Assembly: GCA_016934295.1 (NCBI GenBank)
Contig: JAFGTD010000314.1
Location: 1-39,030, forward strand
Direction: 5' to 3'
From: Acidobacteriota bacterium
GTDB taxonomy: Bacteria; Acidobacteriota; UBA6911
DNA length: 39,030 bases
The translations under genes and the position numbers were made by a program. Within the stretch, counting starts at the first letter, position 1. The number at the start of each line of letters is the position of its first letter. The notes under the pieces were generated by a model. The model had not been told where the DNA came from and did no database searches. It saw nothing but the letters and a program-made list of their open reading frames with translations. This document shows, in pieces, positions 846 through 14,832 of this stretch.

Positions 846-973
846 ATCTTGACGCTACTTTGTAGAAATTAGTGGGGCGATGCAAATTACATAAAATAAA
901 GAAGTTAAATATACTGCTTCAGCAGTGATTTTTGATCTGGGTCACTTAAAATCGAAAATGTGTGATTAAAGAA

Positions 974-990
974 TGTAAGATTTTTTTACA
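974..990. promoter_or_regulatory. 17-bp inverted repeat, proposed PrsR site 1
   Basis: TGTAAGATTTTTTTACA is one of six 17-bp TGTAA-N7-TTACA sites in the window, all in intergenic DNA upstream of PEP-CTERM genes. It lies in the roughly 300-bp gap between the first PEP-CTERM gene and the TIGR03790-like gene. That gap otherwise holds the -24/-12 promoter and a short palindrome (ACTGCT-TC-AGCAGT, 913-926) of unknown role. Assignment to PrsR is inference. Confidence 0.6.
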
Positions 991-1096
991 TTGTCCAAGT
1001 CTTTTATATTATAAGTATTTAATAATCAGCAACTTAGATAAATTATTGATTGTAAAGAAAACCGACACTTGAGTCCCATCTGAATGAATGATGGTT

Positions 1097-2908
1097 TTAT
1101 TTTCTTTGGATCACCATCTCCTGTAACTGCTTGACTTCCTCCGTCTTCTCCAACTCCGGATCGATTTCCAGGGCGCGCTCCAGGGCTATTTCCGCCTGGA
1201 GGGTATTGCCTGTTGCTGCGCTGACAATGGCGAAGTGAAGGTGGATCTGCGCGTTCGGGATGTTGGCGCGGGCTGCTTCTTCCAGATATTCGATGGCTTT
1301 ATCATCCTGTCCCGCAAGGTGAAGGATCCAGCCCAGGGTGTCGGCCAAGTTGGGGTTTTTATTGGAAAGTTTATAAGCTTTTTCAGCCAGCGGGAGCGCT
1401 TCTTCGATGGAGTTTTTATGCACGGCCAAGGCATAAGCCAGATTGTTCAATACCACTGCGTTGTCCGGAGAAAGATCCAGGATTCTGCGATAGCGTTCGA
1501 TGGCCTTTTCGTATTCCTTGTCCAATTCATATAGATTCGCCAGGATGAGTTGAGGAGAGGGCAAACGATCGTCAAGTGCCAGATACTCTTCAAGAGCTTT
1601 CTTTGCCCCGGACCGGTCGTTCTTCGCCAATCGTGCTTCGGCCTGGAGAATCGGTTTGATTGCATCAGGAAGAACTCCTGCGCTTTTATAGGCGACCATG
1701 GATGCGTTTTTCAGTTTCCTACTTCCAAAAAATCGGGGGAATTCTGTCTCGAGATCGATCCCGGGATCTATTTGATCGGCAGACAAATAACTTTTGCGGA
1801 AGGGTGCGCATAGAGGATCTCCAATCACGACGGTCTGCCAGCTCAAGTATGGCACAGCCAGGTAATAGGATTCTATAAGGTTGAATCCGGACATATAGGC
1901 CGGGAACAGAATATTCGGACGCACGGTTGCTTCAAGGAATGGTTCGGCGACATACGCTGCGATCCCCGTAACACCTTCTCGGATAAGATCCCCGGCGAGG
2001 GATTGGGGGGAGCCGGCAAAATGAGTGTCTCGATTGTCCCAGGTTCCTATCTGCCAGTCAGCAGGAGGTTCGGTGAAGGTGCGCCCGTCGGAACTGACAA
2101 ACATACCGGCAAGAGCACCCGGCGTGAATTTCATCCCAAAATGGCGGATTTTGATGGCGGGATCGTTGGATCCCCAGGAATAGTAGCCGAGGACGTTTGA
2201 AAATCCCTGCAACGTTTTCTCGGTGTTGTCAAGAACGACGCGGTCTTCGAATCCCATGCTTTTTAAAGCACTTGCGGTCTCCTGCAGCCATAAATCGCCC
2301 CCCTCTTTCGATGAGCTTTTGGCGTCCAGAATAATTTGTCCCTCTTTAGCGGGTGTAAAACCGGTGTCTATCAGTTTGTAGATGTCGGCGGTATTGTATC
2401 CGTCAAGACGGCTGACCAGGTAAATATCGTAGTCCTGATGATTGAATTGTTTTGCCTGATTCAGGGGGGTGTCATTTAAAAAGTATGGATTCCCGAAAGG
2501 TCCGGCTACGGCGATATTATGTCCCATCATTCTCGGATAAAGGAGAGTCAATTCGGAATCGACACTGGACGTTGTTGCATCTTTGCCGGATGTACCTGTT
2601 ATCCGAAAAGGAATGCCTTTGGTCAACACTATGTAGAGGATGCGGTCCTGAGCGAAGTTGCGCGTCAGCCAGGCCGCGATCGGTTGATGGATCTGGCCCT
2701 GGAAATTTGCGGGGGTGATTTCGTCGTCAGCTTCGGTCCGGATCCTGATGATATTCGATTCCGGTATGCCGCGCTTCTGCGCGTAATAGGCTCCAATATC
2801 CATAGAAACCGGGCTGGTTTCATTGAGAACCAGCAGAACATTTTCCGCGGTCTGAGAAAACAACGGGGCACCAAACAAAGTCATTGCTAAAATTATACGT
2901 AGTATCAT
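1097..2908 (-). CDS. TIGR03790-like secreted protein with C-terminal TPR domain
   Basis: A 603-residue protein with a short N-terminal signal peptide (MILRIILAMTLFGAPLFSQ). The first two thirds match my memory of the TIGR03790 family: 'VLLVLNE.SPVS..IGAYYAQKRGIP..NIIRI' near residues 24-58, 'YIVLTKGIPFRI' near 95, and 'YYSWGSND' near 242. No biochemical function is established that I know of. From about residue 425 the chain becomes tetratricopeptide repeats ('NLAYALAVHKNSIEEALPLAEKAY', 'LADTLGWILHLAGQDDKAIEYLEEAA', 'ALERALEIDPE'). These TPRs resemble those of the PrsT proteins further along. It is unlinked in operon terms: a 300-bp regulatory gap lies on one side and a repeat pair on the other. 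The start has no strong ribosome binding site. A role in the cell envelope is inference. Confidence 0.75.
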   Translation of the reverse strand: MILRIILAMTLFGAPLFSQTAENVLLVLNETSPVSMDIGAYYAQKRGIPESNIIRIRTEADDEITPANFQGQIHQPIAAWLTRNFAQDRILYIVLTKGIPFRITGTSGKDATTSSVDSELTLLYPRMMGHNIAVAGPFGNPYFLNDTPLNQAKQFNHQDYDIYLVSRLDGYNTADIYKLIDTGFTPAKEGQIILDAKSSSKEGGDLWLQETASALKSMGFEDRVVLDNTEKTLQGFSNVLGYYSWGSNDPAIKIRHFGMKFTPGALAGMFVSSDGRTFTEPPADWQIGTWDNRDTHFAGSPQSLAGDLIREGVTGIAAYVAEPFLEATVRPNILFPAYMSGFNLIESYYLAVPYLSWQTVVIGDPLCAPFRKSYLSADQIDPGIDLETEFPRFFGSRKLKNASMVAYKSAGVLPDAIKPILQAEARLAKNDRSGAKKALEEYLALDDRLPSPQLILANLYELDKEYEKAIERYRRILDLSPDNAVVLNNLAYALAVHKNSIEEALPLAEKAYKLSNKNPNLADTLGWILHLAGQDDKAIEYLEEAARANIPNAQIHLHFAIVSAATGNTLQAEIALERALEIDPELEKTEEVKQLQEMVIQRK

Positions 2909-2921
2909 TTTCTCATCATAT

Positions 2922-3001
2922 CATGCGGAAGCTTGCTCCCGCTTTAATCTGGCATCGATATAACGAAGGCAGCTCGCAAGGTTTGCTTGCGAGCGCACTC
3001 C
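2922..3001. repeat. Paired REP-like hairpins, copy A
   Basis: Two short hairpins in inverted arrangement: GCGGAAGCTTGCTCCCGC near 2925-2942 and CTCGCAAGGTTTGCTTGCGAG near 2973-2993. The right end reads gcgcactcc. This is a diverged member of the GGAGTGCG-ended paired-hairpin family also found at 5796-6123, 7125-7338, 8279-8366 and 26602-26732. Confidence 0.6.
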
Positions 3002-3144
3002 ATATATATTCCTTTTTACGAAATGTGATGTTTGAATTGCACCCACCCATTCATTTTTTTCGCTCAATCGCAAGCATTCCAATTATGAAGCACAGGGCCT
3101 TCTAATACCATCGGCTTTCCTCGAAGATTTGTTATGGAAATGAC

Positions 3145-3276
3145 TTGCATAGAACGACCGAAACATTTAAAAAGGATACTTTCCAAGAGACAAAGCCGCC
3201 TCTCAATGAGAAAGAATTCCGTCGCCGGATTCATGCAGCTAAGGAAAAGGTTAAAACCAACATGATCGTTGCATGA
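3145..3276 (+). pseudogene. Possible gene remnant (C-terminal end)
   Basis: An open frame without an ATG ends with charged, protein-like sequence (KPPLNEKEFRRRIHAAKEKV... then NMIVA and stop). A TTG at 3145 is the only candidate start and has no ribosome binding site. The composition looks like the end of a small helical protein such as an antitoxin, so I read it as a decayed gene. The rest of the 2909-3336 gap holds only repeat copy A and the ribosome binding site of the next gene. Confidence 0.25.
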
Positions 3277-3336
3277 AGTCCGTGAATTTGTGCTAATCTT
3301 ATTATAAATGCAGCGTGGTTGTCGATAAGGGTATCT

Positions 3337-4332
3337 ATGTACGAAAAATTTTACGGCCTGAAAGAAAGAGCTTTCAACCTTACTCCGGACCCGACTTTTC
3401 TTTTCCTTAATAACAGGAGCAGGGAAGCTCTGGACCAGATCCTTTACGGGATCGAGCGAAGGGAAGGATTCGCCCTGATTGTAGGAGATATCGGAACGGG
3501 CAAAACGACCCTGTGCTGGACCCTTCTTGAAAAGCTGGAAAAGAAAAAAGTTCGTACTGCTTTAATTCAGAATCCGATGCTTCCCGAATCGGACATCCTG
3601 AGGTCCATCCTGCAGGATCTTGGCGCTCGTGCCGAAGAAGTGCAGCCCCATCCATCGAAAGATGATGAAAAACGGCTTGAAGCATTTGATACGGATTGGC
3701 TGGACGGCCTGAATAAAAAACAGCTTCTTGACCGGCTCAACAGGTTTCTGGCCGCGAGAGCCCAGGAGGATGTGTTCACCGTCCTGATTGTGGACGAGGC
3801 GCAGAATATTTCCATAACGCTTCTGGAGCAGCTGAGGCTACTTTCAAATCTTGAAACGGCAAAGAAAAAGCTGCTTCAGATTATCTTTGTGGGGCAGCTG
3901 GAACTTGACCAGAAGCTCAGGGCGCCGTCGATGCGGCAGTTGAACCAGAGGATCTCGGTTCGCTTCGAAACCAAGCCTTTTTCAAAGGGAGACACAGAAA
4001 AGTATATTCGCCACAGGCTCGCGAAAGCAGGCGGCGGGAGCAAACTGCGCTTCCGGACCGGGGCTTTTACGAAGGTGTGGCGCTATTCAAAAGGCTGCCC
4101 GCGGCTGATCAATCTTATCTGCGATCGAGCGCTTCTTGCCGCATACAGCGAGCGGTCTTTCGTCATCACTTCCAAGTTTATCCGTAAAGCAGCCCACGCT
4201 CTCCAGGGTAAGGAGTATACCGGGCATGTGCCCACGGGGTGGTTCGGGAGAACGGTGCCATACCTTGTCCCGGCCATTCTGCTGCTCGGTGTGCTATTGT
4301 TTGTAGCCTACAAGGGGCTGGCCCAGCTTTAA
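3337..4332 (+). CDS. XrtA/PEP-CTERM locus ExeA-like AAA ATPase
   Basis: A 331-residue P-loop ATPase of the ExeA/GspA type, the group found in PEP-CTERM loci (TIGR03015-like). The hallmark N-terminus MYEKFYGLKERAFNLTPDP is present. Walker A is GDIGTGKTT at residues 50-58, and Walker B is VLIVDEAQNIS near 146-156. Arg-rich sensor regions follow ('QLNQRISVRF', 'GCPRLINLICDRAL'). A single hydrophobic segment near the C-terminus (about 306-327) predicts an inner-membrane anchor. I start at the ATG at 3337, which has AAGGG 6 nt upstream and restores the family N-terminus; a TTG at 3319 would add six unlikely residues. Family members are thought to support export or assembly of exopolysaccharide or surface proteins, but the substrate is unknown. 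It precedes an HPt-like protein and the CAAX-protease homologue on the same strand. Confidence 0.9.
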   Translation: MYEKFYGLKERAFNLTPDPTFLFLNNRSREALDQILYGIERREGFALIVGDIGTGKTTLCWTLLEKLEKKKVRTALIQNPMLPESDILRSILQDLGARAEEVQPHPSKDDEKRLEAFDTDWLDGLNKKQLLDRLNRFLAARAQEDVFTVLIVDEAQNISITLLEQLRLLSNLETAKKKLLQIIFVGQLELDQKLRAPSMRQLNQRISVRFETKPFSKGDTEKYIRHRLAKAGGGSKLRFRTGAFTKVWRYSKGCPRLINLICDRALLAAYSERSFVITSKFIRKAAHALQGKEYTGHVPTGWFGRTVPYLVPAILLLGVLLFVAYKGLAQL

Positions 4333-4527
4333 ATCTGCCTGTCAACGACAAAATTCATTCAATTATTAAACATTTTTCATCAAAAATTAATAAATACTGG
4401 ACAAAGCACTATATTTAGTGTATGAAGAAATTGCGTACACAATATAAAGTTGTCAGACTTGGATTTTTCAGATTGCTCGCGTTGCAGTTGATATTTTATC
4501 CACAGATCTGAAACTGGAAGAGTGCCA

Positions 4528-4983
4528 ATGAGCACCGGTGTAATATTCAATAAAGCTCGGGACAGCAGGGATACCATCTTCGGCCAAACCGGCGCTGTTT
4601 TCCCTATAGACTCCCAATTTCGATCACTTCGCCTCTATATTGAAGACGGGAAAACCACCTTAGATCAAATACGGGTGGATTTTTCCGTTTCTCAATCCAA
4701 TCCGGGGGATTCGTCAAGATTACAGAGAGCTGCGAAAAAACTTTCAGGATTCTGTATCGATACCGACGATTGGGGATTTGAGAGGCTTTACAAGGTCGCT
4801 TTCGGGCTACAGGCCCTCCTGGTCAATTCCTTCAACAGGACACACAACGACCTTTTCTGGGAAGTCTTAACGCAGGGATTAGCCATGTTAACGGCTCTTC
4901 TAAATCAATGTGAAAGCGAGTATCGCCAAAGACTGGCCGTTGACGACATGCTTGAAAGTTTCAACAGAGCCGCCTGCAATTAG
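4528..4983 (+). CDS. Small helical protein, possible degenerate HPt-like domain
   Basis: A 151-residue cytoplasmic protein with no signal peptide or membrane segment. I do not recognise a named family. Its C-terminal half (about residues 65-140) has the pattern of a CheA-P1/HPt four-helix domain: 'LQRAAKKLSGF', then 'GFERLYKVAFGLQALL', then 'VLTQGLAMLTALLNQC'. HPt domains usually read 'AAHxLKG', and here the phosphorylatable His position is Lys, so it should not relay phosphate if the match is real. The ATG at 4528 is preferred (GGAAG about 9 nt upstream) over the GTG at 4522. It lies between the ATPase and the CAAX-protease homologue in the same direction, so it may be part of the exosortase accessory set. 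Function is unknown. Confidence 0.7.
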   Translation: MSTGVIFNKARDSRDTIFGQTGAVFPIDSQFRSLRLYIEDGKTTLDQIRVDFSVSQSNPGDSSRLQRAAKKLSGFCIDTDDWGFERLYKVAFGLQALLVNSFNRTHNDLFWEVLTQGLAMLTALLNQCESEYRQRLAVDDMLESFNRAACN

Positions 4984-5131
4984 TCCTTAAGAGAGTGTGA
5001 TTCCAAAATCCCGTACGGGATTGTAGTCGGAATTATCTCCCGATAAATAGTTTTGCCAGCCAAAAGAAAAAATTCCTTTCCATCGAGACGCTTGCCGCCG
5101 ATAACGCATGAGATTACAATAAAGGCTCTCT

Positions 5132-5791
5132 ATGCTGAAAAGGATTCAATCTTCTCCAATTCTTGCCCGCGTTGTTCCATTCGGTGTTTTTGCGCTTCTG
5201 ACGCTTCTTCAGGGACAATTGGGAGAAAATTCTCAATACTGGATTTATGCGCTCAAAACCGGTATCGGGGCATGGCTCCTTTGGCTCGTGCGCCCGTACG
5301 TCAAGGAAATGCGGTGGAAGCTCTCCTGGGAAGCTGTGATTGTCGGAGTGTTTGTGTTCATAGTTTGGGTCGGATTGGACGGACACTTCCCGAGGCTGGC
5401 TGAACGATCGGGCAGCTTCAATCCGGGCGCTGCCTATGGTGCCGGCAGTTTTCTTGCCCTTTTTTTTATCGGTGTGCGGATTATCGGTTCATCGCTCGTA
5501 GTTCCGCCTCTTGAAGAAGTCTTTTACCGTTCATTCATTTATCGTTACATCCAGAAATCCGACTTTCTGAAAATTCCGCTCGGCCGCTTCCACTGGGTTT
5601 CGTTCCTTGTCACAGGGATCATCTTCGGTGTCGGGCATTATGAATGGCTCCAGGGCATCATTTGCGCTTTTGCCTACCAGGGCCTCGTCTGCAGAAAAGA
5701 CCGCCTGGGGGATGCAATCTGGGCCCATGCGATCACCAATTTTCTTCTGGGTGTGTATGTAGTCGCCCGTGGCGCCTACATCTTCTGGTAA
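5132..5791 (+). CDS. XrtA-locus CAAX prenyl protease-related membrane protein
   Basis: A 219-residue multi-spanning membrane protein of the CPBP/Abi (CAAX protease and related) superfamily, matching the subfamily that accompanies PEP-CTERM/exosortase loci (TIGR03008-like). The glutamic-type protease motifs are all present. Motif 1 is PPLEEVFYRSFIYR, with the Glu pair at 128-129 and Arg at 133. Motif 2 is FGVGHYEW, with His at 169. The last is IWAHAITNFLLG, with His at 199 and Asn at 203. Length agrees with the family. It probably acts as an intramembrane protease or scaffold in PEP-CTERM protein or exopolysaccharide handling, but its substrate is not established. An AAAGG lies about 9 nt before the ATG. 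The downstream 600 bp is repeat-rich noncoding DNA. Confidence 0.9.
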   Translation: MLKRIQSSPILARVVPFGVFALLTLLQGQLGENSQYWIYALKTGIGAWLLWLVRPYVKEMRWKLSWEAVIVGVFVFIVWVGLDGHFPRLAERSGSFNPGAAYGAGSFLALFFIGVRIIGSSLVVPPLEEVFYRSFIYRYIQKSDFLKIPLGRFHWVSFLVTGIIFGVGHYEWLQGIICAFAYQGLVCRKDRLGDAIWAHAITNFLLGVYVVARGAYIFW

Positions 5792-5795
5792 TCTT

Positions 5796-5936
5796 TTGGA
5801 GATGGGCGCACGTAAGCGAAGCTTGCGCGCTTGCATTGCGCCATTCGAGGTTTTACAACTCCATCAAAACTCTTTATAAAAGAAAATCCACATCCTGAGT
5901 AATTTTTTCTATTACGGCGGTTTGCTGCCGCAATAC
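5796..5936. repeat. Paired REP-like hairpins, copy B1 (degenerate)
   Basis: Left unit 'ggcgcacgtaagcgaagcttgcgcgc' is nearly identical in design to the left unit at 26602. The right unit 'ggcggtttgctgccg' (5917-5931) is the inverted partner. Together with copy B2 it fills the first part of the 5792-6396 gap, where I see no coding sequence. Confidence 0.5.
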
Positions 5937-5965
5937 AAATATCTAAGATTGCCTGCGCCTTATGT

Positions 5966-6123
5966 GGAGTGCGCAAGCTTGCTTGCGCCTTTCGAGGCAT
6001 TACATGCCATCAAAAATTTTTCATATAAGAAAACTAAACATTCTAAAGCAATTATTTTATTGCTGCAGCCTTGTTTTCCCATTGCCGAGTTGTTGTAAAG
6101 GCTGCAGCAAGCTGCAGCACTCC
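5966..6123. repeat. Paired REP-like hairpins, copy B2
   Basis: The left unit starts ggagtgc and continues GCGCAAGCTTGCTTGCGC (5966-5988). The right unit is aaggctgcagcaagctgcag followed by cactcc (6098-6123). The outer ends are inverted copies of GGAGTGC and the stems differ in sequence from other copies while keeping their pairing. Confidence 0.65.
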
Positions 6124-6207
6124 AAGGAATATACGACATACGGTATTCGATATAATGAATTCAGCGACGGAAGTAAATTAGCAAAATATCACTCACTTAG
6201 GGGAATT

Positions 6208-6381
6208 CCATTATCGAGTTCCGCACAACATAGGGACCTTGTTGGAAGAAAGCTCCGAAGGAGCGATTTATTAATAGCCGCGGGCGTAAGCCCGTGGAAC
6301 AAAGCACATCATTGATAGAGCCCCGGAGGGGCGGCACTTGCTTCATATTTTAAAGTCTCTATATTATGCGGAATTGAATGG
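6208..6381. mobile_element. MITE-like element with terminal inverted repeats, copy 1
   Basis: The left end (6208-6240, core gagttccgcacaacataggg) is the inverted complement of the right end (6352-6381, core ctatattatgcggaatt). Inside are three GC-rich hairpins: gctccgaaggagc, cgggcgtaagcccg and gccccggaggggc. It encodes nothing. A shorter copy with the same ends and the gccccggaggggcggcactt core lies at 33424-33522. It ends 16 bp from the toxin gene stop codon. Confidence 0.65.
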
Positions 6382-6396
6382 TTCTAAATCCTTGCA

Positions 6397-6846
6397 CTAG
6401 CTGATGTCCGTCGAAATTACGCAAACATGATCCTCCGCCTTCACCCCCTCCGGCAAAAGATTTAGAATCCCCCTGTCAAAGGTTGCCAGCAATGCCTCAT
6501 TCCGTAATGCCAGGGATAGCAGGTGAGCGTCGGAAACTTGTCGATAGGTATGTATCTTTTCCACAGGAATAAATCGATTGTCCAGTATGGAAGCTTCTTC
6601 CTCCCAAAATACATGTCCTTTCAGTGAGATTAGATCCTTTAAATACAGCGCGGCTTCCCTGGGGGACCTGGCTTCCGGAATTATTCTGGGATTGGAGGAT
6701 ATCCGAATGAAACCGTTTTCAGTAGCCGGGCAAGTGGCCCATCCGGATTCTTTCTGTTTCTGAAACCATTTCCTGGCAGGCAAGTGGTGGATATGATTCG
6801 GCCATGCAATGGCTACCAGTACATTAATATCCAGTAGTGCGATCAA
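6397..6846 (-). CDS. vapC: PIN-domain toxin (VapC-type ribonuclease)
   Basis: A 149-residue PIN-domain protein. The metal-binding acidic residues of the fold are in place: Asp6 (ALLDINVLVA), Glu43 (ATENGF), Asp106 (SDAHLL) and Asp124 (ATFDRG). The layout resembles the Mtu_PIN (TIGR00028) group. Known relatives are Mg-dependent endoribonucleases that cleave tRNA or rRNA when released from their antitoxin; the target here is unknown. Translation starts at a TTG whose first base overlaps the antitoxin stop codon region (shared TTGA, 6843-6846), indicating coupling. It follows the antitoxin gene as is normal for vapBC. The pair sits in a repeat-rich intergenic island and is probably an acquired module unrelated to the exosortase system. 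Confidence 0.88.
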   Translation of the reverse strand: MIALLDINVLVAIAWPNHIHHLPARKWFQKQKESGWATCPATENGFIRISSNPRIIPEARSPREAALYLKDLISLKGHVFWEEEASILDNRFIPVEKIHTYRQVSDAHLLSLALRNEALLATFDRGILNLLPEGVKAEDHVCVISTDIS

Positions 6847-7070: not shown

Positions 7071-7124
7071 AGAACCAATAGTACCATTTGATGCATTGAT
7101 GTCAAGATGTCAAGATGATTACTT

Positions 7125-7338: not shown

Positions 7339-7346
7339 AATAATGA

Positions 7347-8045
7347 CTATCGATGGTATCTATCAATTTTGCAGCTTCGCTGTTTTCTTCGGATCACCAG
7401 AACTCCTAACAACCCAAATCCCACCAGAACCGCTGTCGCCGGCTCCGGTACCGTGGTTGGATCGGTATAAGAAATGGGAGTTCCAGAAACGACAAGATTA
7501 TCAATTCGATTATTCCCCGAATAGCTCGTAGCCCCGTCAAAGACAATCCGGAATCCTGCCCAGGGATTATTATTCAGCGCATCTATTTTTCCAAGGTCGA
7601 AACTCTGCAGCCCGAAATCCGTTGCCGGCTCATACGGGGATCCGTATCCGAACCATGAAAGCCCCGAGTCGATACTGTAGAAGAACTGATTGGAATTGAA
7701 TCCAGTACCGGTTCGCCGGGTGGCAAAACTAATGCTGATGGCGGAAAAGCCCGTTGTGTCCACCATCCAGGTAAGGTTATGTCCGTTATTATCCCTATCT
7801 TTGAGCAGAAGAGCCAGGCCCGCCGGATCCCCGGGAAAGCCGTTTACGGTACTTCCGCCTGAATTCTGGATATTTGCTTCCTCAAAATTACTGGCCATTG
7901 TTCCTGTGCCGTAATCCACAAGGAATTCCTGTTCGCCTCCACTTGTACCTGCAGTCGCATCGTTGAAATTCCACAGGGAAATGACCTCTGCGTTCGCAAT
8001 AGAAACAAGGCAAAGAAATATTACAGTGAGACTGACATATCGCAT
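7347..8045 (-). CDS. PEP-CTERM sorting domain protein with extended C-terminal tail
   Basis: A 232-residue exported protein. The ATG at 8045 is preferred: AAGGAG lies 8 nt upstream and it yields the clean signal peptide MRYVSLTVIFLCLVSIANA, whereas the upstream start (8087) would add 14 charged residues. The mature part ('VISLWNFNDATAGTSGG...') looks like a beta-sandwich surface protein of the kind common among PEP-CTERM substrates. The sorting signal is TTVPEPATAVLVGFGLLGVLVIRRKQR, but about ten further residues (SCKIDRYHR) follow the basic cluster, where most PEP-CTERM proteins stop. Two TGTAA-N7-TTACA sites lie upstream, shared with the divergent gene at 8591. I could not find a -24/-12 element at correct spacing on this strand. 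Function is unknown. Confidence 0.88.
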   Translation of the reverse strand: MRYVSLTVIFLCLVSIANAEVISLWNFNDATAGTSGGEQEFLVDYGTGTMASNFEEANIQNSGGSTVNGFPGDPAGLALLLKDRDNNGHNLTWMVDTTGFSAISISFATRRTGTGFNSNQFFYSIDSGLSWFGYGSPYEPATDFGLQSFDLGKIDALNNNPWAGFRIVFDGATSYSGNNRIDNLVVSGTPISYTDPTTVPEPATAVLVGFGLLGVLVIRRKQRSCKIDRYHR

Positions 8046-8125
8046 TTCTGTTCTCCTTTCTTTTCCGTCAGTCTCAATGTTTCGCAATTTCCCCCTTCAT
8101 TTTAAAAAACTGCAATATTTTTTTG

Positions 8126-8142
8126 TGTAAACCTTCTTTACA
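8126..8142. promoter_or_regulatory. 17-bp inverted repeat, proposed PrsR site 2
   Basis: TGTAAACCTTCTTTACA lies between the divergent PEP-CTERM genes at 7347-8045 and 8591-9349, about 80 bp from the minus-strand start. The half-sites are the same TGTAA/TTACA as in the other five copies. Confidence 0.6.
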
Positions 8143-8217
8143 ATCCACCAGAAAATAATGTCCTTATATCGTTGATATATAAATAATTATGGGGATTTGT
8201 ACTGATCTGTAAGCCGC

Positions 8218-8234
8218 TGTAAAAGGATTTTACA
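8218..8234. promoter_or_regulatory. 17-bp inverted repeat, proposed PrsR site 3
   Basis: TGTAAAAGGATTTTACA is a palindrome with 7-bp arms. It is 92 bp from site 2 and about 300 bp upstream of the sigma-54 promoter at 8532. The paired spacing resembles the 89-bp spacing of sites 4 and 5. Confidence 0.6.
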
Positions 8235-8278
8235 ATAACCTATATCAATAATTTCCTCCTCTAAAGGCATCATAACTT

Positions 8279-8366
8279 GGAAGTGCGGCAGCTTGCTGCC
8301 GCCTTGGATAATTTCATAAATCTTTAATATTCAATAAATTAAGGCGGCAGCTTGCTGCCGCACTCC
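8279..8366. repeat. Paired REP-like hairpins, copy D (best preserved)
   Basis: Two identical stems, GCGGCAGCTTGCTGCCGC, sit in inverted arrangement (left 8283-8302, right 8343-8362). An AT-rich 35-40 nt spacer separates them and the ends are ggaagtgc and gcactcc. The element lies between the PrsR-like sites and the -24/-12 promoter of the 8591 gene. The rest of the 8046-8590 gap is AT-rich regulatory DNA. Confidence 0.8.
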
Positions 8367-8531
8367 AAAAGTGTCGATACCTGGAACTAATATCTTTTAA
8401 ATGTAAGTAATTATTCGCTTTGTGAATGAATAACAAATGAACTTGATATTAGTTATTTACACAGAATGAACGGATATAAGTTTATTAATATCAATGATTT
8501 ATAGTTTTGTTTATATTCGTAGCCGTAGTTA

Positions 8532-8547
8532 TGGAATGCTTTTTGCG
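8532..8547 (+). promoter_or_regulatory. Sigma-54 (-24/-12) promoter of the 8591 gene
   Basis: TGGAATGCTTTTTGCG keeps the GG-N10-GC spacing and the -12 TTGC. The -24 half deviates from TGGCACG in two places and shares the TGGAATG variant with the promoter at 11763. The predicted transcript start is near 8558, 33 nt before the ATG. Confidence 0.55.
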
Positions 8548-8590
8548 TCTTATTAATCAAAATTTCATAAAGGCAAGGAGGCCTGGATAA

Positions 8591-9349
8591 ATGAAGGGAT
8601 TAATAAAAACAGCTTTTCTAATTTCCAGCATAATGATTTTGGTTATGGGTGCAGCTTTTGCGGATACGGTCATTCCATTTACCGATAATGCCCCGCCAAA
8701 CTTTTGGCCTGGTTACCCGAGTGATTCATTGGATAATTCAAGGGAAACTATTGGAGAGCCGAATATCTCCGGAGGAGAGATTGTTCTTACCGACGACGGT
8801 TATTTGGAGGAAGTATCCTTCTTTTTCACAGAATGGGGATTCAGCCTTATGAAACCCGGGGATCTCTTTCTGAATACGGACAACGATCCGGAATGGGATT
8901 ATGTTATGTCTCTTTATAATAGAGCGGATGGCACCAACGTAGCTTACGATAATGGCGTCAACAGCCGATATATACCGACAACCGCGTACAATAATGTTCC
9001 TCTATATGCGGTCGAAGAAGATGCAACACTGCTTTTAACCGGTGCAGATAATTCCGGCTATTGGAGCGGATACCTGATTCGAAACAATCACCCCTTTGCC
9101 TATACCGGGATGGATGATAACGCTTTGGGTTATGGTTCAGTCTCGGGTGGGTTCGAAGATGATTCCCCGCTCACATTTGCTCTTCCTACTGACACGCTTT
9201 TGATTACTGACTACCTGGCAATAGGCTTCGCGCAGAATTGCGCCAACGATCCTGTATACGAAACCGTTGTGCCGGAACCTTCAACTCTTATCTTCCTCGG
9301 AAGTGGACTGCTGCTTCTTGGCGGATATCTTAGAAAAAAACGTTCCTGA
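8591..9349 (+). CDS. PEP-CTERM sorting domain protein
   Basis: A 252-residue exported protein. The signal peptide (MKGLIKTAFLISSIMILVMGAAFA) is followed by an Asp/Asn/Tyr-rich body of unknown fold. The C-terminal sorting signal is VVPEPSTLIFLGSGLLLLGG, then the basic end YLRKKRS. AAGGAGG lies 9 nt before the ATG. A -24/-12 promoter (8532-8547) and two distal TGTAA-N7-TTACA sites precede it, and a strong terminator follows directly (9380-9412), so it is a single-gene unit. It is transcribed divergently from the PEP-CTERM gene at 7347-8045. The protein is presumably an exosortase substrate displayed on the cell surface or in the matrix; the specific role is unknown. Confidence 0.9.
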   Translation: MKGLIKTAFLISSIMILVMGAAFADTVIPFTDNAPPNFWPGYPSDSLDNSRETIGEPNISGGEIVLTDDGYLEEVSFFFTEWGFSLMKPGDLFLNTDNDPEWDYVMSLYNRADGTNVAYDNGVNSRYIPTTAYNNVPLYAVEEDATLLLTGADNSGYWSGYLIRNNHPFAYTGMDDNALGYGSVSGGFEDDSPLTFALPTDTLLITDYLAIGFAQNCANDPVYETVVPEPSTLIFLGSGLLLLGGYLRKKRS

Positions 9350-9379
9350 TTCATTCAACGTTTCATCGTTTCATACCTG

Positions 9380-9412
9380 CCCGCGGGAAACAACATCCCG
9401 CGGGTTTTTTTT
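9380..9412 (+). terminator. Intrinsic terminator after PEP-CTERM gene
   Basis: A 9-bp GC-rich stem (cccgcggga / tcccgcggg) with a 7-nt loop is followed by eight T residues. It lies 31 bp after the stop codon at 9349. Confidence 0.9.
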
Positions 9413-9500
9413 GGTGTGCCCGGCAGGGCGCACAACCGGCCCGCATTTCTTACAAGCATTCATCCGCTAAGTGTTCCATGCTGCTGTTCTGATACGATGT

Positions 9501-9523
9501 GGGGCGAACCTTGTGTTCGCCCC
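9501..9523. repeat. REP-like hairpin
   Basis: A perfect 9-bp stem, ggggcgaac / gttcgcccc, with loop cttgt. It has no T-tract and so is not a terminator. Similar hairpins are common dispersed repeats in environmental genomes. The remainder of the 9350-9753 gap shows no coding sequence. Confidence 0.5.
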
Positions 9524-9685
9524 GAATCATTCCAGGTTGACTCCTTAATCCTTATTTTTCCCATGGTTTCTACTGCGACACAGAGGACCGTTCACTCAAA
9601 CTCATCATGCCGTAAATAAGACTGTGTTTGTTCGATGGCTGAGTAATACTGGCTAAAGTATGAGTGTCTTTGATACGATAAATTA

Positions 9686-9718
9686 AATGCACCAGAGTGT
9701 ATGATTGTTGGGTGCATT
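9686..9718. promoter_or_regulatory. Inverted repeat upstream of the DPDPVE lipoprotein
   Basis: AATGCACC (9686-9693) and GGTGCATT (9711-9718) form an 8-bp inverted repeat about 40 bp before the start codon. It could be an operator or a leader hairpin; nothing identifies the factor. Confidence 0.3.
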
Positions 9719-9753
9719 CTTAAAGAATTATAAGGTTGAGGAGTAGGATTCAA

Positions 9754-11340
9754 TTGTATAAGAGACTGGCAGTAGCAGTGGCGCTTATCGCATTGGCGAC
9801 GGTTCTGTTGCTCGGAATGGCCTGCAGCGGTACTCCCCGTTCCGGTGGAACAGACCCCGATCCCGTCGAAGATCCCGATCCCGTCGAAGATCCCGATCCC
9901 GTCGAAGATCCCGATCCCGTCGAAGACCCCGATCCTGTCGAAGATCCGGATCCTGTCGAAGATCCTACTAATCCCAGCTTTATAATTGTTTCCCCCGAAA
10001 ACGGCACATCAGTCCTCGGCAGCAAGCAGATTGTAGTGGAAATAGTCGATATGGATATTACCTCTGTCGAGGTAAAACTGGACGGCGCCGGAGATCCCGT
10101 CTGTGCAATTACGGAGACGCCGTACACCTGCCTGATTGACCTGTCCACTTTCGAGGTCGGCACTGTACATTCCATTACGGCCGAAGGTCATAATAACGGG
10201 AGCATCGTAGCAACCGACACTATTGACTTAGTCCGTGCGGCTTTTAAAAATGACATTTGTACGACTAATACAGGAGGAAACGAACCGCTTGTGGACTGTA
10301 TTGCCGAACTTTTCAACCAGGGACTGGCGGCGGAGAACATCGACGATCAATACGAAAACCGTGATAACAATCATACATCCATCAATATTGCGGAGCACCC
10401 GCAAGTGTCATATATCCACGGGCCCTACGGCATGAGCGAAATCGGCCTGACTCCCCAGAATAATAATCCCGACGAACCGCTAACCGGTAATGCATCGATC
10501 TGTATCGACGGCGGCGCCGGTTGGTGCGAAGGAGGTGTTCATTACCTCATGAGAACCGGAAGAGCCGATATAATGTATGATCTTTACGCGGGCAGCAACT
10601 TCTACTGGTTCCCGGAGCATAAGGACCACGATGCAGAGGATCTCGCCTTCTATATGGTGCCCTTTGTTAACAGTTCACAGGGTTCTTCAGGATCGGAAAT
10701 GGACGAGATCAGCAAGTGGCTGTATACGCTTGCAGCATTTACTCCGGAGACCAAAGCTGCGTTGGTCTCCTCCCGCCTGTTAATGCCGACGGTACAGATG
10801 ATTTTCCGTCGGACTCGCGTTGCGAGTGACACGGAGTATCTATCGGAGCTTGCTCATGCCAATGCGTTTGAAAACACGGCGAATGCGCACACCATGGTGC
10901 GTGTGGCAAACAATATGGCTGCCGACGCGATTCCCCCGATGGTGCAGCTTACGGTCATAGAAGATACCTTCGATGCGACATGGGGAGAAAAGGCCTTTAC
11001 CACACCGGTAGCAATCGCACGCTCCTGGCATACGGCTCCAGACACCCCGCGTCGGATTGTGGTAAGCGCCGTGAATTCATTCGATCCCAACAACCGCTCC
11101 CTGACATTCCACTGGCGGCTGATCCGCGGCGATTCCGAGCATGTTCTCATTACGCCTTTTGGTGAAAATAACTCCAGCGCCGAGATTGAGATAGATTTTC
11201 ACCCTGCGGAACAGATCCAAATCGGGAATCAAGAACGCACTTCAACCCTGGTCTCCGTCGCTGTGTTTGCACACAACGGTGAATATTTTTCGGCGCCCGC
11301 TTTCATCACATCCTCCACCCGCGATTACATTCCGTATTAA
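9754..11340 (+). CDS. Putative lipoprotein with DPDPVE-repeat stalk, unknown function
   Basis: A protein of about 528 residues. The N-terminus (MYKRLAVAVALIALATVLLLGMAC) is a lipoprotein signal with Cys near residue 24. Six exact DPDPVE repeats (residues about 34-69) form a rigid acidic, Pro-rich stalk. An Ig-like module follows ('FIIVSPENGTSVLGSKQIVVEIVD...VEVKLDG', about 75-165), then a central Trp/His-rich region I do not recognise ('GGAGWCEGGVHYLMRTGRADIMYDLYAGSNFYWFPEHKDHDAEDLAFYMV'). A C-terminal PKD-like strand pattern ('VVSAVNSFDPNNRSLTFHWRLI') closes it. I chose the TTG at 9754, which has AGGAG about 10 nt upstream; a TTG at 9736 is the alternative. It has no PEP-CTERM tail, no -24/-12 promoter and no TGTAA-N7-TTACA site upstream, so it is probably not in the same regulon although it sits among its members. 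Confidence 0.85.
   Translation: MYKRLAVAVALIALATVLLLGMACSGTPRSGGTDPDPVEDPDPVEDPDPVEDPDPVEDPDPVEDPDPVEDPTNPSFIIVSPENGTSVLGSKQIVVEIVDMDITSVEVKLDGAGDPVCAITETPYTCLIDLSTFEVGTVHSITAEGHNNGSIVATDTIDLVRAAFKNDICTTNTGGNEPLVDCIAELFNQGLAAENIDDQYENRDNNHTSINIAEHPQVSYIHGPYGMSEIGLTPQNNNPDEPLTGNASICIDGGAGWCEGGVHYLMRTGRADIMYDLYAGSNFYWFPEHKDHDAEDLAFYMVPFVNSSQGSSGSEMDEISKWLYTLAAFTPETKAALVSSRLLMPTVQMIFRRTRVASDTEYLSELAHANAFENTANAHTMVRVANNMAADAIPPMVQLTVIEDTFDATWGEKAFTTPVAIARSWHTAPDTPRRIVVSAVNSFDPNNRSLTFHWRLIRGDSEHVLITPFGENNSSAEIEIDFHPAEQIQIGNQERTSTLVSVAVFAHNGEYFSAPAFITSSTRDYIPY
9853..9960 (+). repeat. 18-bp tandem repeat, six units, coding for DPDPVE
   Basis: Six in-frame 18-bp units of gaYccSgatccYgtcgaa, differing only at synonymous third positions. 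Such a tract can gain or lose units by slippage and so vary the stalk length. Confidence 0.95.
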
Positions 11341-11546
11341 CAAACCGCCTCAAGGTGTTCTTTGATATACCGCGCTTCACAGCTTGCAGGATGCTGGTAA
11401 AAAAAGAGCGAAGATGAAAAGAGGATGACTCCCTCAGCCTGTTTCTGACATATATTGGCGAATCATCGACTTGGTTTCGATAAAACCTCTTTATTTAGTG
11501 CCCATTAACAATAAACATAGCTGAAATTCCATAGCGGTGCCGGAAA

Positions 11547-11563
11547 TGTAAGCTTTTTTTACA
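11547..11563. promoter_or_regulatory. 17-bp inverted repeat, proposed PrsR site 4
   Basis: TGTAAGCTTTTTTTACA lies about 210 bp upstream of the -24/-12 element at 11763. The whole 11341-11846 gap is AT-rich regulatory DNA with no coding sequence that I can support. Confidence 0.6.
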
Positions 11564-11635
11564 CTTGGCTAAATTACCATATCTTAATTAAATAAAAGGA
11601 TTTACATTATTTGGCCCATACAGATGGTTCAATAG

Positions 11636-11652
11636 TGTAAAGTTCTATTACA
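11636..11652. promoter_or_regulatory. 17-bp inverted repeat, proposed PrsR site 5
   Basis: TGTAAAGTTCTATTACA lies about 120 bp upstream of the -24/-12 element and 89 bp from site 4. A further split pair, attgtaa (near 11704) and tttacaat (near 11730), lies closer to the promoter but with non-standard spacing. Confidence 0.6.
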
Positions 11653-11762
11653 ATTTAAAGAATATTGTTAATCCGTTCACATGCCCGTAAACCAGGGATC
11701 TTCCATTGTAATTAATTGACATAAAAGCGTTTACAATATAATCGGTCGTTGCCGGGATTAAG

Positions 11763-11778
11763 TGGAATGAATATTGCT
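11763..11778 (+). promoter_or_regulatory. Sigma-54 (-24/-12) promoter of the vWA PEP-CTERM gene
   Basis: TGGAATGAATATTGCT has GG-N10-GC spacing and an intact -12 TTGCT. Its -24 half is the same TGGAATG variant as at 8532. The predicted transcript start near 11789 leaves a leader of about 58 nt. Confidence 0.62.
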
Positions 11779-11846
11779 TTATCCAAAAATACGTCATCAA
11801 AAGGATTTGGGAAGCTTAAGATAATAACCTTAAAGGAGTAAGTATA

Positions 11847-12593
11847 ATGAAAAAACTTCTAGTATTTGTAGCAGCCGTTATGCTGATGGCAGGATTTGCT
11901 ACGACTGCATCCGCAGCTTCATATGCGGATATTGTTTTCATGGTAGATCAGTCGGGCAGTATGGGGGATGATTTCGCTTGGCTGGCATCCAGCATTAATA
12001 CCATTAATGCAGGTGTTCAAGCTGCCGGTATAACCGCAAATTTCGGTCTCGCCGGATTCGAATATGATGCTGGAACTGAGTATTATTATAATGCATACCA
12101 GGATCTCACCAGCAATCCCGCCCTGGTCACCGCCGAGGCAAATTATGCCGGCACGCATCTTTATGGCGGAGCTGAGCGAAGCTACCATGCAGCTGCTTGG
12201 GGTGCCGTTTCTCCGAACTTCAGCTATACCGGTGGTGATTACGCCAAGGTTATGGTTTTGATCACGGACGAGTATCCCTATGACGTCTATTCAGGAGGCT
12301 GGACTGAGGGATCTCTGGGTGCATATATGGATGCCAACAATGTTCTGCTTAATGTTATTACGCTTCAGGGCTTGTTTGGTTACTGGGATGGAGCCGTGTA
12401 TACTACAAGCTCCTACCAGGGACTGTTTGACTTGGGTTACCTCAGATCTAATCCCACCCAGTTCACACAGGACTTCATAGACGCTAAAGTTAAAGAAATC
12501 ATCGAATACAATGTTCCGGAGCCCTCAACACTTCTGCTGCTGGGCGGCGGACTTCTGGGGCTTATCGGCTTCAGGAAAAAATTCATGAAATAA
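11847..12593 (+). CDS. von Willebrand factor A domain PEP-CTERM protein
   Basis: A 248-residue exported protein. The signal peptide (MKKLLVFVAAVMLMAGFATTASA) is followed by a vWA domain. The MIDAS metal site begins DIVFMVDQSGSMGDD, with the DxSxS motif at residues 34-38; a later strand 'YAKVMVLITDEYPY' supplies the expected Thr/Asp. The chain ends in VPEPSTLLLLGGGLLGLIGF plus the basic tail RKKFMK. vWA domains bind protein or matrix ligands through the metal, so this is a candidate matrix-binding exosortase substrate. AAAGGAG lies 8 nt before the ATG. It has a -24/-12 promoter, two upstream palindromes and its own terminator, so it is a single-gene unit under probable PrsR control. Confidence 0.93.
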   Translation: MKKLLVFVAAVMLMAGFATTASAASYADIVFMVDQSGSMGDDFAWLASSINTINAGVQAAGITANFGLAGFEYDAGTEYYYNAYQDLTSNPALVTAEANYAGTHLYGGAERSYHAAAWGAVSPNFSYTGGDYAKVMVLITDEYPYDVYSGGWTEGSLGAYMDANNVLLNVITLQGLFGYWDGAVYTTSSYQGLFDLGYLRSNPTQFTQDFIDAKVKEIIEYNVPEPSTLLLLGGGLLGLIGFRKKFMK

Positions 12594-12642
12594 CTGGAAC
12601 TGCTTATAAAAAAAGTCAGCGGTTCTAACATCTATATAATAA

Positions 12643-12675
12643 GAAACTGCCCCGGTAACGGGGCAGTTTCTTTTT
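12643..12675 (+). terminator. Intrinsic terminator after vWA gene
   Basis: An 11-bp stem, gaaactgcccc / ggggcagtttc, with a short loop is followed by a T5 run. It lies 50 bp downstream of the stop codon. Confidence 0.9.
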
Positions 12676-12765
12676 CAGTTCGCCTTCTCTCTGTACATCC
12701 AACAGAGATAAAAGCCTCAACTAACTTCACCTGTGAATATCATAGGTATGGATATTTTCGTAAAC

Positions 12766-12797
12766 CGAAAACGTGTGTGTCGGTGACACATGTTTCG
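12766..12797. repeat. Isolated palindrome
   Basis: The sequence cgaaaacgtgtgtgtc-ggt-gacacatgtttcg folds into a long imperfect hairpin with the inner core gtgtc-ggt-gacac. It has no T-tract and lies about 170 bp after the vWA gene. The remaining DNA to 12995, which is the 3' side of the UDP-glucose dehydrogenase gene, shows nothing I can name. Confidence 0.45.
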
Positions 12798-12995
12798 CTG
12801 TGCTTATTCAGAAGTTACTCCATCGACGTGTAATAATTTTCTCTCCCCACTTGTCCTTTCATGTAGAAAAATTTTGACCAGGAGCCTGCGCCGAAGAAAA
12901 CACGTGATATCTGGTTCAAAGTTATTTTAATGTCTCTATCTACGCACCAGTTGATGGGGTTCCATCCTTTCTTCGTAACATCGTGCTGATTTGCA

Positions 12996-14369
12996 TCAGA
13001 AATGCTTCAATGGTGGGTGCCCCAGGGGAAAGACGTTAAATCCGATATTGAAGAGCTTCTCGATATCGAGGATGTTGCGTCCATCGAATACAAAGGCCGG
13101 CTTTTCCATTGATGCGTAAATTTTATCCCACGAAAGATTCCGATATAGATCCCACTCGGTCATTATGGCCACGGCATGAACACCCCGGGCTGCCTCGTAA
13201 GGATCTTCGATGTAATTAATGTTCCCCTCACATCCGGCCAGGTCAATACGCGCATTTTCGATCGCTTTGGGATCGGTGATCACCACGTCCGCTTTCTCTT
13301 CAAGCAGTTTTTTAGCCACATAGATAGCCGGAGACTCCCTGGTGTCACCGGTGTTGGACTTGAAGGCAAATCCAAACAAGGCAATCCGCTTGTCGACAAT
13401 TGTATTGAACATGGAACGGACCATATTCCGGACAAAGCGCGATTCCTGGTATTCGTTCATTTTCAGGACCCACTCCCAGTATTGGGCGACTTCAGGAAGA
13501 TGGTAGGCTTCGCAGATATAGACGAGGTTCAAAATATCCTTCTTGAAGCAGGATCCGCCAAAACCGATGCTCGCATTAAGGAACCGGCTGCCGATGCGCG
13601 TATCCATACCAACAGCATGGGATACTTCCTGAACACTGGCTTCAGTCCGTTCACAGAGAGCGGAAATGCTGTTGATGGATGAGATCCGCTGCGCCAGGAA
13701 GGCGTTGGCTACAAGCTTGGATAATTCCGCACTCCATACATTGCTTGTGACAATGCGATCAGCCGGGACCCAGTTTGCATAAATATCGACGATTGACTGC
13801 CGGGCTTTCAATCCCCCAGGGGTTTCCCGGGAACCGATCAGTACCCGGTCGGGCTCCAGGAGGTCCTTTACCGCCGTGCCTTCGGCAAGAAATTCGGGAT
13901 TGGAGATAACGTCGAAATGGATATTTTTGTCGTTGGCATTCAGGATGTTTTCCATCGTCTGCGAGGTTTTAACGGGCAGAGTGCTTTTTTCGATGACTAT
14001 CTTGGGAGATTCGGATTCATGAAGAATCTCTCGGGCTACTTTTTCCCAGTATTGAAGATCGGCCGCTTTCCCAGACCCTTCGCCGAAGGTCTTGGTGGGG
14101 GTATTCACCGACACGAAAATGATCTCGGATTCCCGGATGGCAGCATCGATGTCGGTAGAGAAAAACAGGTTCCGTCCGCGCGCCTCCTTTACGACTTCCA
14201 GAAGTCCGGGTTCATAAATTGGAAGATTTTCGGTCTGCCAGGCTTTTATACGAGCCTCATTGACGTCCACAACAGTCACTTTATATTGCGGGCATTTCAT
14301 GGCGATCACAGCCATGGTGGGCCCGCCTACATAACCGGCTCCGATACAGGCAATGTGCTTTTCAAACAT
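12996..14369 (-). CDS. ugd: UDP-glucose 6-dehydrogenase, eukaryote-like form
   Basis: A 457-residue NAD-dependent dehydrogenase that oxidises UDP-glucose to UDP-glucuronate, a precursor for acidic exopolysaccharide. The N-terminal Rossmann motif is IGAGYVGGPT (residues 9-18). The NTPTK loop is at 89-93, the ISNPEFLAEGTA motif is near 155-166, and the catalytic Cys274 sits in GFGGSCFKKD. The GGPTMAVIA opening, the long C-terminal domain and 'FGFAFKSNTGDTRESPAI' resemble the animal/plant-type enzyme more than the short bacterial Ugd/TuaD form. GGGAG lies about 10 nt before the ATG. It is convergent with the vWA gene and divergent from the PEP-CTERM gene at 14833; the TGTAA-N7-TTACA site at 14652 lies between them. 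I found no -24/-12 element for this gene. Confidence 0.95.
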   Translation of the reverse strand: MFEKHIACIGAGYVGGPTMAVIAMKCPQYKVTVVDVNEARIKAWQTENLPIYEPGLLEVVKEARGRNLFFSTDIDAAIRESEIIFVSVNTPTKTFGEGSGKAADLQYWEKVAREILHESESPKIVIEKSTLPVKTSQTMENILNANDKNIHFDVISNPEFLAEGTAVKDLLEPDRVLIGSRETPGGLKARQSIVDIYANWVPADRIVTSNVWSAELSKLVANAFLAQRISSINSISALCERTEASVQEVSHAVGMDTRIGSRFLNASIGFGGSCFKKDILNLVYICEAYHLPEVAQYWEWVLKMNEYQESRFVRNMVRSMFNTIVDKRIALFGFAFKSNTGDTRESPAIYVAKKLLEEKADVVITDPKAIENARIDLAGCEGNINYIEDPYEAARGVHAVAIMTEWDLYRNLSWDKIYASMEKPAFVFDGRNILDIEKLFNIGFNVFPLGHPPLKHF

Positions 14370-14651
14370 GTTCTTGGGCTCCCTTTCTTTCCACTAATTA
14401 CTACTATAAAATGCTTTTAATTATATAGATAATAATTACGCCCTGATTCTGATTTTTCCGTTTTTACGTCAGGTTGCCCGTTGTTCTCAATAAATCTTTT
14501 AAAATAAACAATTAAATAGAAACGTGAGAATATTTATCGGCCGCATCCCTATATTTAATGATGTCGAATAATATTACAATCGGCATTTTGACGGAAACCT
14601 TAATTTTTAGTTATATTTAGCCTGTTACTGACCTGTATGCGCCCCGAGTGT

Positions 14652-14668
14652 TGTAAAGATACTTTACA
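14652..14668. promoter_or_regulatory. 17-bp inverted repeat, proposed PrsR site 6
   Basis: TGTAAAGATACTTTACA is a palindrome with 7-bp arms, centred about 107 bp upstream of the best -24/-12 promoter in the window. The remainder of the 14370-14832 gap is AT-rich with no coding sequence. Confidence 0.68.
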
Positions 14669-14782: not shown

Positions 14783-14832
14783 AGAATTAATGGCAGAAAT
14801 GGAATGATGCAATTAAAAATATGGAGGATGCA

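Follow-up and report, generated by a model that had tools for sequence, protein, structure and literature searches.

Paired sites upstream of PEP-CTERM genes in an Acidobacteriota genome as candidate PrsR enhancers of sigma-54 promoters

The upstream regions of PEP-CTERM genes were described by Haft et al. (2006; PMC1569441), who defined a 17-nt 'motif 1' with the 3' end TTTACA that precedes a sigma-54 'motif 2'. Of 167 PEP-CTERM genes of Proteobacteria, 99 had both motifs, and the authors predicted motif 1 to be the site of the regulator PrsR and reported an exact match of phylogenetic profiles. For pepA, dependence on RpoN1 and mapped -24/-12 elements have been reported and a predicted enhancer is mentioned (PMC9850573), and in Zoogloea both RpoN and PrsK-PrsR are required for the PEP-CTERM genes, according to a statement citing other work (PMC9012009). 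Because activated-sludge bacteria form flocs with the participation of PEP-CTERM proteins (PMC9850573, PMC9012009), the control of these genes has practical weight. Here we analyse a stretch of 39,030 nucleotides (the window; contig JAFGTD010000314.1 of assembly GCA_016934295.1) from an Acidobacteriota bacterium of the lineage UBA6911, in which six 17-bp palindromes precede PEP-CTERM genes and which also contains prsK and prsR. Judged from the sequence, these palindromes are probably one of two interchangeable forms of an enhancer bound by PrsR, occurring mostly in pairs, phased, and looped to the sigma-54 promoter by bends of the integration host factor (IHF) type.

The sites resemble motif 1 in their length of 17 nt, the 3' end TTTACA, the position before a GG/GC sigma-54 promoter, the occasional repetition and the link to PrsR, PrsK and PrsT, so that the suggestion made with the original prediction, that the motif may be new, is not supported: Haft et al. 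(2006; PMC1569441) had already defined it and predicted PrsR binding. The prediction is otherwise retained, as a PrsR site and regulon, on account of the promoters, of prsK and prsR in the window and of the genome-wide count, with PrsR itself as the presumed binder. Regarding differences, the spacer separating motif 2 from the closest motif 1 was given as 62.8 nt (32-92), whereas about 35 of the 42 nearer sites described here lie beyond this range (more than 109 bp start to start), a comparison good to a few nucleotides that depends on the start of motif 2, given in a figure only. The section on motifs in that paper mentions neither two forms nor a fixed pair spacing nor an IHF element, and motif 1 was found only in Proteobacteria, whereas the present sites are from an Acidobacteriota bacterium. 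By their sequence and placement the sites here are best classed as a variant of motif 1 and not a plain member, because most nearer sites lie beyond the 32-92 nt spacer range. A PrsR site has thus been predicted since 2006, and what is added here is a two-form consensus and a precise promoter anatomy with direct predictions regarding spacing, orientation and the need for IHF. No test of PrsR binding was found in the literature searched, which included few subscription papers, so one may exist.

Among related activators, NtrC recognizes sites of the form TGCAC-N7-GTGCA and NifA sites of the form TGT-N10-ACA. The sites described here share the TG-N13-CA geometry of NtrC sites but have another half-site, and their pair spacing of 88-102 bp is wider than that of the NtrC pair. 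Enhancers of this class usually lie 100-150 bp upstream of the promoter, with looping often aided by IHF (PMC7057263), and the distances found here are ordinary for enhancer-binding proteins in the light of that range. The closest IHF-assisted architecture among the literature found is that of the Desulfovibrio vulgaris orp operons, which likewise have a palindromic activator site (-131) and IHF sites (-42, -79) between site and promoter (PMC3897727); that work is experimental and concerns one divergent locus, whereas the present pattern is one of sequence over many promoters and involves paired sites.

Sites and promoters of PEP-CTERM genes

Scanning of the window confirmed all six predicted TGTAAR...TTACA sites as exact, a count not attained in any of 100 dinucleotide-shuffled versions of the window. 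Perfect 7-bp arms, as had been claimed, are present in TGTAAAAGGATTTTACA (8218..8234) and TGTAAAGATACTTTACA (14652..14668), and arms of 5-6 bp in TGTAAGATTTTTTTACA (974..990), TGTAAACCTTCTTTACA (8126..8142), TGTAAGCTTTTTTTACA (11547..11563) and TGTAAAGTTCTATTACA (11636..11652); the 3' end is TTTACA in five of the six and ATTACA in the site at 11636. The location upstream of five PEP-CTERM genes was also borne out, with the five open reading frames (ORFs) downstream of the six sites all above the TIGR02595 cut-off of 16 bits.

Distances to strict GG-N10-GC promoters, measured from the start of the site to the -24 element, are 146 bp for the site at 974, 216 and 127 bp for those at 11547 and 11636, and 115 bp for that at 14652. 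The leftward gene 114..800 (reverse strand; 24.5 bits) has a -24/-12 promoter, TGGCAGAAAAATTGCT (829..844, reverse strand), for which the PrsR-type site at 974 is proximal and a companion beyond the first six, TGTCGGTTTTCTTTACA (1051..1067, reverse strand), is distal, 223 bp from the -24 element and 77 bp from the proximal site; an IHF-like sequence with one mismatch lies in the site-promoter gap (895..907, coordinates derived by hand from the offset -63). Gene 11847..12593 (forward strand; 26.5 bits) has the promoter TGGAATGAATATTGCT (11763..11778, forward strand), a distal and a proximal palindrome 89 bp apart, and in the gap the IHF-like sequence TAATTAATTGACA (11709..11721, one mismatch, offset -54). 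Gene 14821..15534 (forward strand; likely start 14833; 24.8 bits) has the promoter TGGCACGGAACTTGCT (14767..14782, forward strand), matching at all 12 scored positions, with the palindrome at 14652 as proximal site and the companion TGTCGAATAATATTACA (14562..14578, forward strand) as distal site, 205 bp from the -24 element and 90 bp from the proximal one; no IHF-like match was found in this gap. The sites at 8126 and 8218 lie 92 bp apart in a divergent region shared by gene 7347..8087 (reverse strand; likely start ATG 8045) and gene 8591..9349 (forward strand; 21.0 bits), and are 406 and 314 bp from the -24 element of the promoter TGGAATGCTTTTTGCG (8532..8547, forward strand), both distances being measured to the rightward gene. 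Between these two sites and the gene 8591 promoter is an inverted-repeat element (8280-8373) with two copies of GGCAGCTTGCTGCCGC (at 8287 and 8346), which occupies the unusually long site-promoter gap of this gene; an exact copy of the element was not detected in the other loci examined, except in loci overlapping the same place.

The genome-wide count of TGTAAR-N6-TTACA, proposed as a check on the original prediction, gave 17 occurrences in the home genome versus 3 of the reversed pattern and did not refute it, and TGTAAV-N5-BTTACA gave 15 versus 3 in the control. Exact TGTAA-N7-TTACA occurs 19 times, and 12 of these precede PEP-CTERM genes; confinement to PEP-CTERM upstream regions thus holds within the window and not quite across the genome, where seven of the 19 lie elsewhere. 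Among the seven, C50:2749 belongs to a paired-site array before a -24/-12 element whose gene lies past the contig end, C185:10913 lies in a paired array whose promoter is weak, C274:4357 lacks a promoter and is accompanied by a one-mismatch site spotted by eye, and the remaining four (C2:17048, C2:41658, C142:1717 and C188:1177) are solitary, a number about at control level.

The predicted consensus describes the palindromic form and misses a second, oriented form, TGTCGG-N5-YTTACA, which a mismatch-tolerant scan of the same regions detected, paired with the palindromes and as common as they are in PEP-CTERM upstream regions. In the home genome TGTCG-N6-YTTACA occurs 19 times versus 2 in the control, with six sites before PEP-CTERM genes, seven before other -24/-12 elements and six without a promoter in range (C30, C32, C100, C118, C209 and C210; most inside ORFs). 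The 106 PEP-CTERM upstream regions analysed, 13 from the home genome and 93 from 13 relatives, contain 73 exact sites, of which 71 are distinct (36 TGTCG and 35 TGTAA), versus 1 in the backwards control and a mean of 0.25 in shuffles. The TGTCG form is oriented with TTACA facing the gene in 36 cases versus 3 in reverse. Together with the Vibrio alfacsensis site described below, these counts make the palindrome look like one variant within a broader PrsR-box.

The genomes compared are drafts. Regions were defined from 15 PEP-CTERM matches above the cut-off in the home genome, with C33 (37 nt upstream only) and C185:9527 (a second gene) excluded, and from 103 matches in the relatives, of which 93 served as anchors; the ten excluded were seven second or overlapping genes, two very short frames (G008:C101 and G012:C44) and G019:C6, which has internal stops, and the short frames G008:C251 and G012:C87 were kept. 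Promoters were called by the strict GG-N10-GC rule together with a general consensus. Of the 106 regions, 99 extend 250 nt or more upstream; in these, exact sites (both forms counted) were detected in 38 of 56 regions with a -24/-12 promoter versus 11 of 43 without one (Fisher P 4e-5, uncorrected for relatedness), which supports the association of the sites with these promoters. In the home genome, 11 of 13 regions have an exact site of either form, 11 of 13 have at least two sites at one mismatch or fewer, with the 7347 and 8591 regions sharing one pair, and 10 of 13 have a strict promoter.

Sites combined with a -24/-12 element were also observed before genes of other kinds, namely a 299-aa gene without a PEP-CTERM match and with a DUF3466 match below the cut-off (C184), a 505-aa gene with neither a PEP-CTERM nor a Pfam match (C241) and a gene for a TonB-dependent receptor (C337), and at a contig end without a PEP-CTERM match (C12). 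At C185:10913 of the home genome (G000, L046, about 6031-6240) paired sites and a weak -24/-12 element are followed by about 180 nt without a clear ORF and then by a terminator-like hairpin; this stretch may be what is left of a lost gene, or may encode a small RNA belonging to the regulon.

Pair spacing, helical phase and IHF-like elements

Spacing was analysed in 50 promoters from the home genome and its relatives, one per BLAST cluster, all of which combine a -24/-12 element with one or more sites. Clustering (120 bp, 1e-10) reduced 112 regions to 102 clusters, with the first member of each kept. The set includes three of the window's five PEP-CTERM genes and, as additions, six home-genome promoters without a visible PEP-CTERM gene; C185:10913 was admitted on a weaker promoter (score 8, not 9). 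Sites with at most one mismatch at 60-300 bp from the promoter were counted, and among several promoters the one with most sites was taken; the sites at 8126 and 8218 fell outside this range. A site is termed nearer at 80-164 bp and distal at 165-260 bp from the -24 element.

The separation between nearer and distal sites is 88-93 bp in 15 of 35 pairs and 99-102 bp in 18, the remaining two being 77 and 85 bp. With a helical repeat of 10.5 bp, these two classes correspond to roughly 8.5 and 9.5 turns. Pairs such as 228/70 (G007:C28) are outside the 35 because of the distance definitions, and 44 adjacent pairs collected with no promoter required gave the same two separation clusters. The distance from the start of the nearer site to the -24 element ranges over 84-147 bp, with clusters near 105, 115, 126, 137 and 147 bp. 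The best period is about 11 bp overall (n = 42), with none of 5000 jittered sets equally periodic, and none of 5000 was so either when the home genome was left out (n = 29); in the home genome itself it is 10.5 bp (n = 13, P 0.007 over periods 8-13). Among exact sites of the promoter set, 21 of 25 of the TGTAA form and 29 of 37 of the TGTCG form have T at position 12. Phasing of the distal site to the promoter was considered by itself and found unconvincing, with P 0.04 at 10.5 bp overall and 0.36 without the home genome.

Regarding IHF, the pattern WATCAA-N4-TTR with at most one mismatch has 32 matches in the gap between nearer site and promoter, and 25 of 42 promoters have at least one. The expectation is 10.2 (standard deviation, sd, 3.0; largest of 100 Markov-shuffled sets 19), and the reversed pattern gave 3. 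Starts are mostly near -42, -53 and -64 from the -24 element, and density per kb is 17.65 at -70 to -36, 6.36 at -36 to -14 and 1.0 at -110 to -70, with 5.78 at -240 to -150, 1.4 at -420 to -260 and 0.75 downstream. A weaker excess is present in the stretch separating the paired sites, with 21 matches versus an expected 6.6 (sd 2.9) and 10 for the reversed pattern. The home genome has four HU/IHF-type matches, two of which were classified: one protein is above NF001222 (IHF-beta, 120 versus 115) and below TIGR00988 (108.6 versus 119.95), and another has IHF-alpha as its best match, below the cut-off. Among the papers listed by the literature search, which could have missed some that mention both, none joined IHF and PEP-CTERM promoters.

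The balance tips slightly towards a stereotyped module in which two PrsR sites would stand half-integer turns apart, with an IHF-type bend in each gap and the promoter on the same grid, helical phase being under selection at these sigma-54 enhancers; the oriented TGTCGG may set the direction of activation. If this is true, dozens of natural promoters would constitute regulon-scale evidence for selection on helical phase, and some 50 promoters under one presumed activator allow a statistical examination of the old idea that the enhancer faces the promoter.

PrsR as the candidate activator and alternative explanations

The genome encodes PrsR, PrsK and PrsT. In the window, prsR (26739..28127, reverse strand; TIGR02915 573.3 bits, cut-off 502.6) encodes a receiver, a sigma-54 interaction domain and a Fis-type helix-turn-helix (HTH) domain (PF00072, PF00158 and PF02954) with the motifs GSFTGA and ESELFG, and is adjoined by the histidine kinase gene prsK (28151..30244, reverse strand; TIGR02916 377.6 bits, cut-off 300). 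A second prsK-prsR pair is present in the home genome (G000:C125:1-6000, L293), its prsR cut by the contig end before the HTH. The recognition region of the window PrsR is ISRPTLY, SRPTLY is found in 10 of 12 readable PrsR of relatives, and ARSSLY occurs in one PrsR of G008 and one of G012; the C-terminal ends of other NtrC-like proteins of the home genome, readable at four of six loci, are all unlike the PrsR recognition region. We infer a mechanism in which phosphorylated PrsR, an NtrC-like response regulator, would bind as a dimer to the 17-bp sites TGTAAR-N5-YTTACA or TGTCGG-N5-YTTACA. Typically a -24/-12 promoter would be preceded by two such sites about 8.5 or 9.5 turns apart, and 10-14 turns would in most cases separate the nearer one from the -24 element. 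At many promoters an IHF-type bend downstream of the nearer site, perhaps joined by another in the interval separating the paired sites, would fold the DNA so that the PrsR oligomer could reach the sigma-54 RNA polymerase and open the promoter; the regular distances would keep set faces of the DNA helix. The regulon would consist chiefly of PEP-CTERM surface-protein genes, plus a few others.

A number of results weigh against this interpretation. Upstream of the leftward gene 7347-8087 no strict -24/-12 promoter was found, and C267 likewise has sites and lacks a strict promoter, while the divergent pair at 8126 and 8218 has the usual spacing but is off the promoter grid. Pair separations that do not fit are 98 (G008:C179), 113 (C267, home genome), 19, 21, 31, 138, 155-158, 268 and 296 bp; the distal-site phase is weak, as given above, periodicity of the nearer site is weaker in G008 alone (n = 15, P 0.04), and common descent remaining after clustering may inflate the phasing tests. 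PrsR above the cut-off was detected in 12 of 149 genomes, and among these the palindrome is clearly above its control only in the home genome (G000, 15 versus 3) and its same-genus relative G008 (18 versus 4), with 0-3 versus 0-2 in the others. G019 has no site in its two usable regions, G018 has PrsR and no PEP-CTERM match, and G001 has an exact site in only one of eight regions; G001 was dropped as a natural PrsR-minus control, its prsK lying near a contig end, so that prsR may merely be unassembled. The strict paired pattern, with 26 matches in 8 of 149 genomes versus 4 reversed-control matches in 4 genomes, also occurs in 3 of the 137 genomes without PrsR above the cut-off, and the home genome has 24 NtrC-like matches, two of which are PrsR above the cut-off. 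One-mismatch palindromes are not enriched in the home genome (115 versus 116 in the control), so the signal resides in the exact sites.

This last count is also what could be cited for taking the palindromes as chance AT-rich sequence or hairpins with no regulatory role, an idea of practically negligible probability that is contradicted by the counts, as exact sites are enriched and positioned with promoters. Since the genome has 24 NtrC-like matches, another sigma-54 activator could bind the sites while PrsR acts on different DNA; the paired pattern in three genomes without PrsR above the cut-off and the absence of a palindrome excess in most PrsR-bearing relatives would agree with this. We nevertheless regard it as very unlikely. 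The paired pattern is found in 5 of 12 genomes with PrsR above the cut-off versus 3 of 137 without (Fisher P 7e-5, no independent test, as the pattern was derived from these same genomes), and one of the three, G009, with neither PrsR above the cut-off nor PrsK, is only 81% complete. Moreover, a plasmid of the gammaproteobacterium Vibrio alfacsensis with annotated prsK and prsR carries the same site form, TGTCGATATATTTTACA, 89 bp before the -24/-12 element of a PEP-CTERM gene and a one-mismatch site 109 bp before another such element, and its PrsR has the similar recognition region ITRPTLY. The exact phylogenetic-profile match reported by Haft et al. (2006; PMC1569441) also argues for PrsR.

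It is likewise conceivable that the two forms are bound by separate proteins, for example one PrsR paralogue each, or that the palindromes are occupied by a repressor. Two PrsR-type genes above the cut-off are present in the home genome, G008 and G012, with ARSSLY in one each of the latter two, and the nearer position is mixed (21 TGTAA, 20 TGTCG) whereas the distal one is mostly TGTCG (31 versus 9 TGTAA). However, both forms occupy the same positions in all four distal/nearer combinations (TGTCG/TGTAA 15, TGTCG/TGTCG 7, TGTAA/TGTCG 5 and TGTAA/TGTAA 3), and G004, G006 and G007, with one PrsR above the cut-off each, carry both forms, which makes a division between two proteins unlikely and leaves the link of the two forms to two PrsR paralogues unsupported. 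Regarding the 10-11 bp grid, shared ancestry of duplicated promoters could produce it in place of selection on helical phase, as PEP-CTERM genes may multiply by duplication and BLAST clustering merges clear copies only; in G008 alone P is 0.04 for the nearer site and 0.07 for the separation (periods 8-13). This too is considered improbable, as the distances differ by about whole turns, which is unexpected from copying alone, and the grid reappears both when the home genome is left out and in the positions of the IHF-like elements. Binding of both forms by PrsR is the preferred interpretation.

Beyond the relatives, the Alteromonas mediterranea and Photobacterium loci contain no exact sites; the recognition region of the A. 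mediterranea regulator differs from that of the window PrsR, and the Photobacterium record is unannotated. In a search for further PrsR, 48 of 49 matches were set aside with 27-46% identity, as they look like other NtrC-like proteins (not checked singly), and only L066 (83% identity) was taken as a true PrsR. A more distant relative, G028 (L291, L292), has sites that differ in the right half, TGTCGG-N5-CTGACA, located at 247 and 219 bp, and weaker companions at 149 and 119 bp, and its PrsR ends in YELIDKLGIER instead of YDLMSRYGL; it is possible that site and HTH changed together.

Neighbouring genes of the window

Two consecutive prsT-type tetratricopeptide repeat genes lie on the reverse strand at 16584-20675 and 20931-25019 (TIGR02917 609.2 and 606.9 bits, cut-off 312.2); their near-equal lengths, 1363 and 1362 aa, suggest a tandem duplication. 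The exosortase gene (25718..26584, reverse strand) scores 214 bits with TIGR02602 (cut-off 105.55) and 223.6 bits with the XrtA model TIGR03109 (cut-off 208), and an EpsI-type gene is also present. Exosortase and EpsI (25080-26584) are adjoining separate genes that correspond to one half each of the XrtD model TIGR04152, which describes a single chain; both score below the cut-off. Between two PEP-CTERM genes, the ORF 9736-11340 has a DPVEDP repeat tract and a lipoprotein-like start, with no NCBIfam match.

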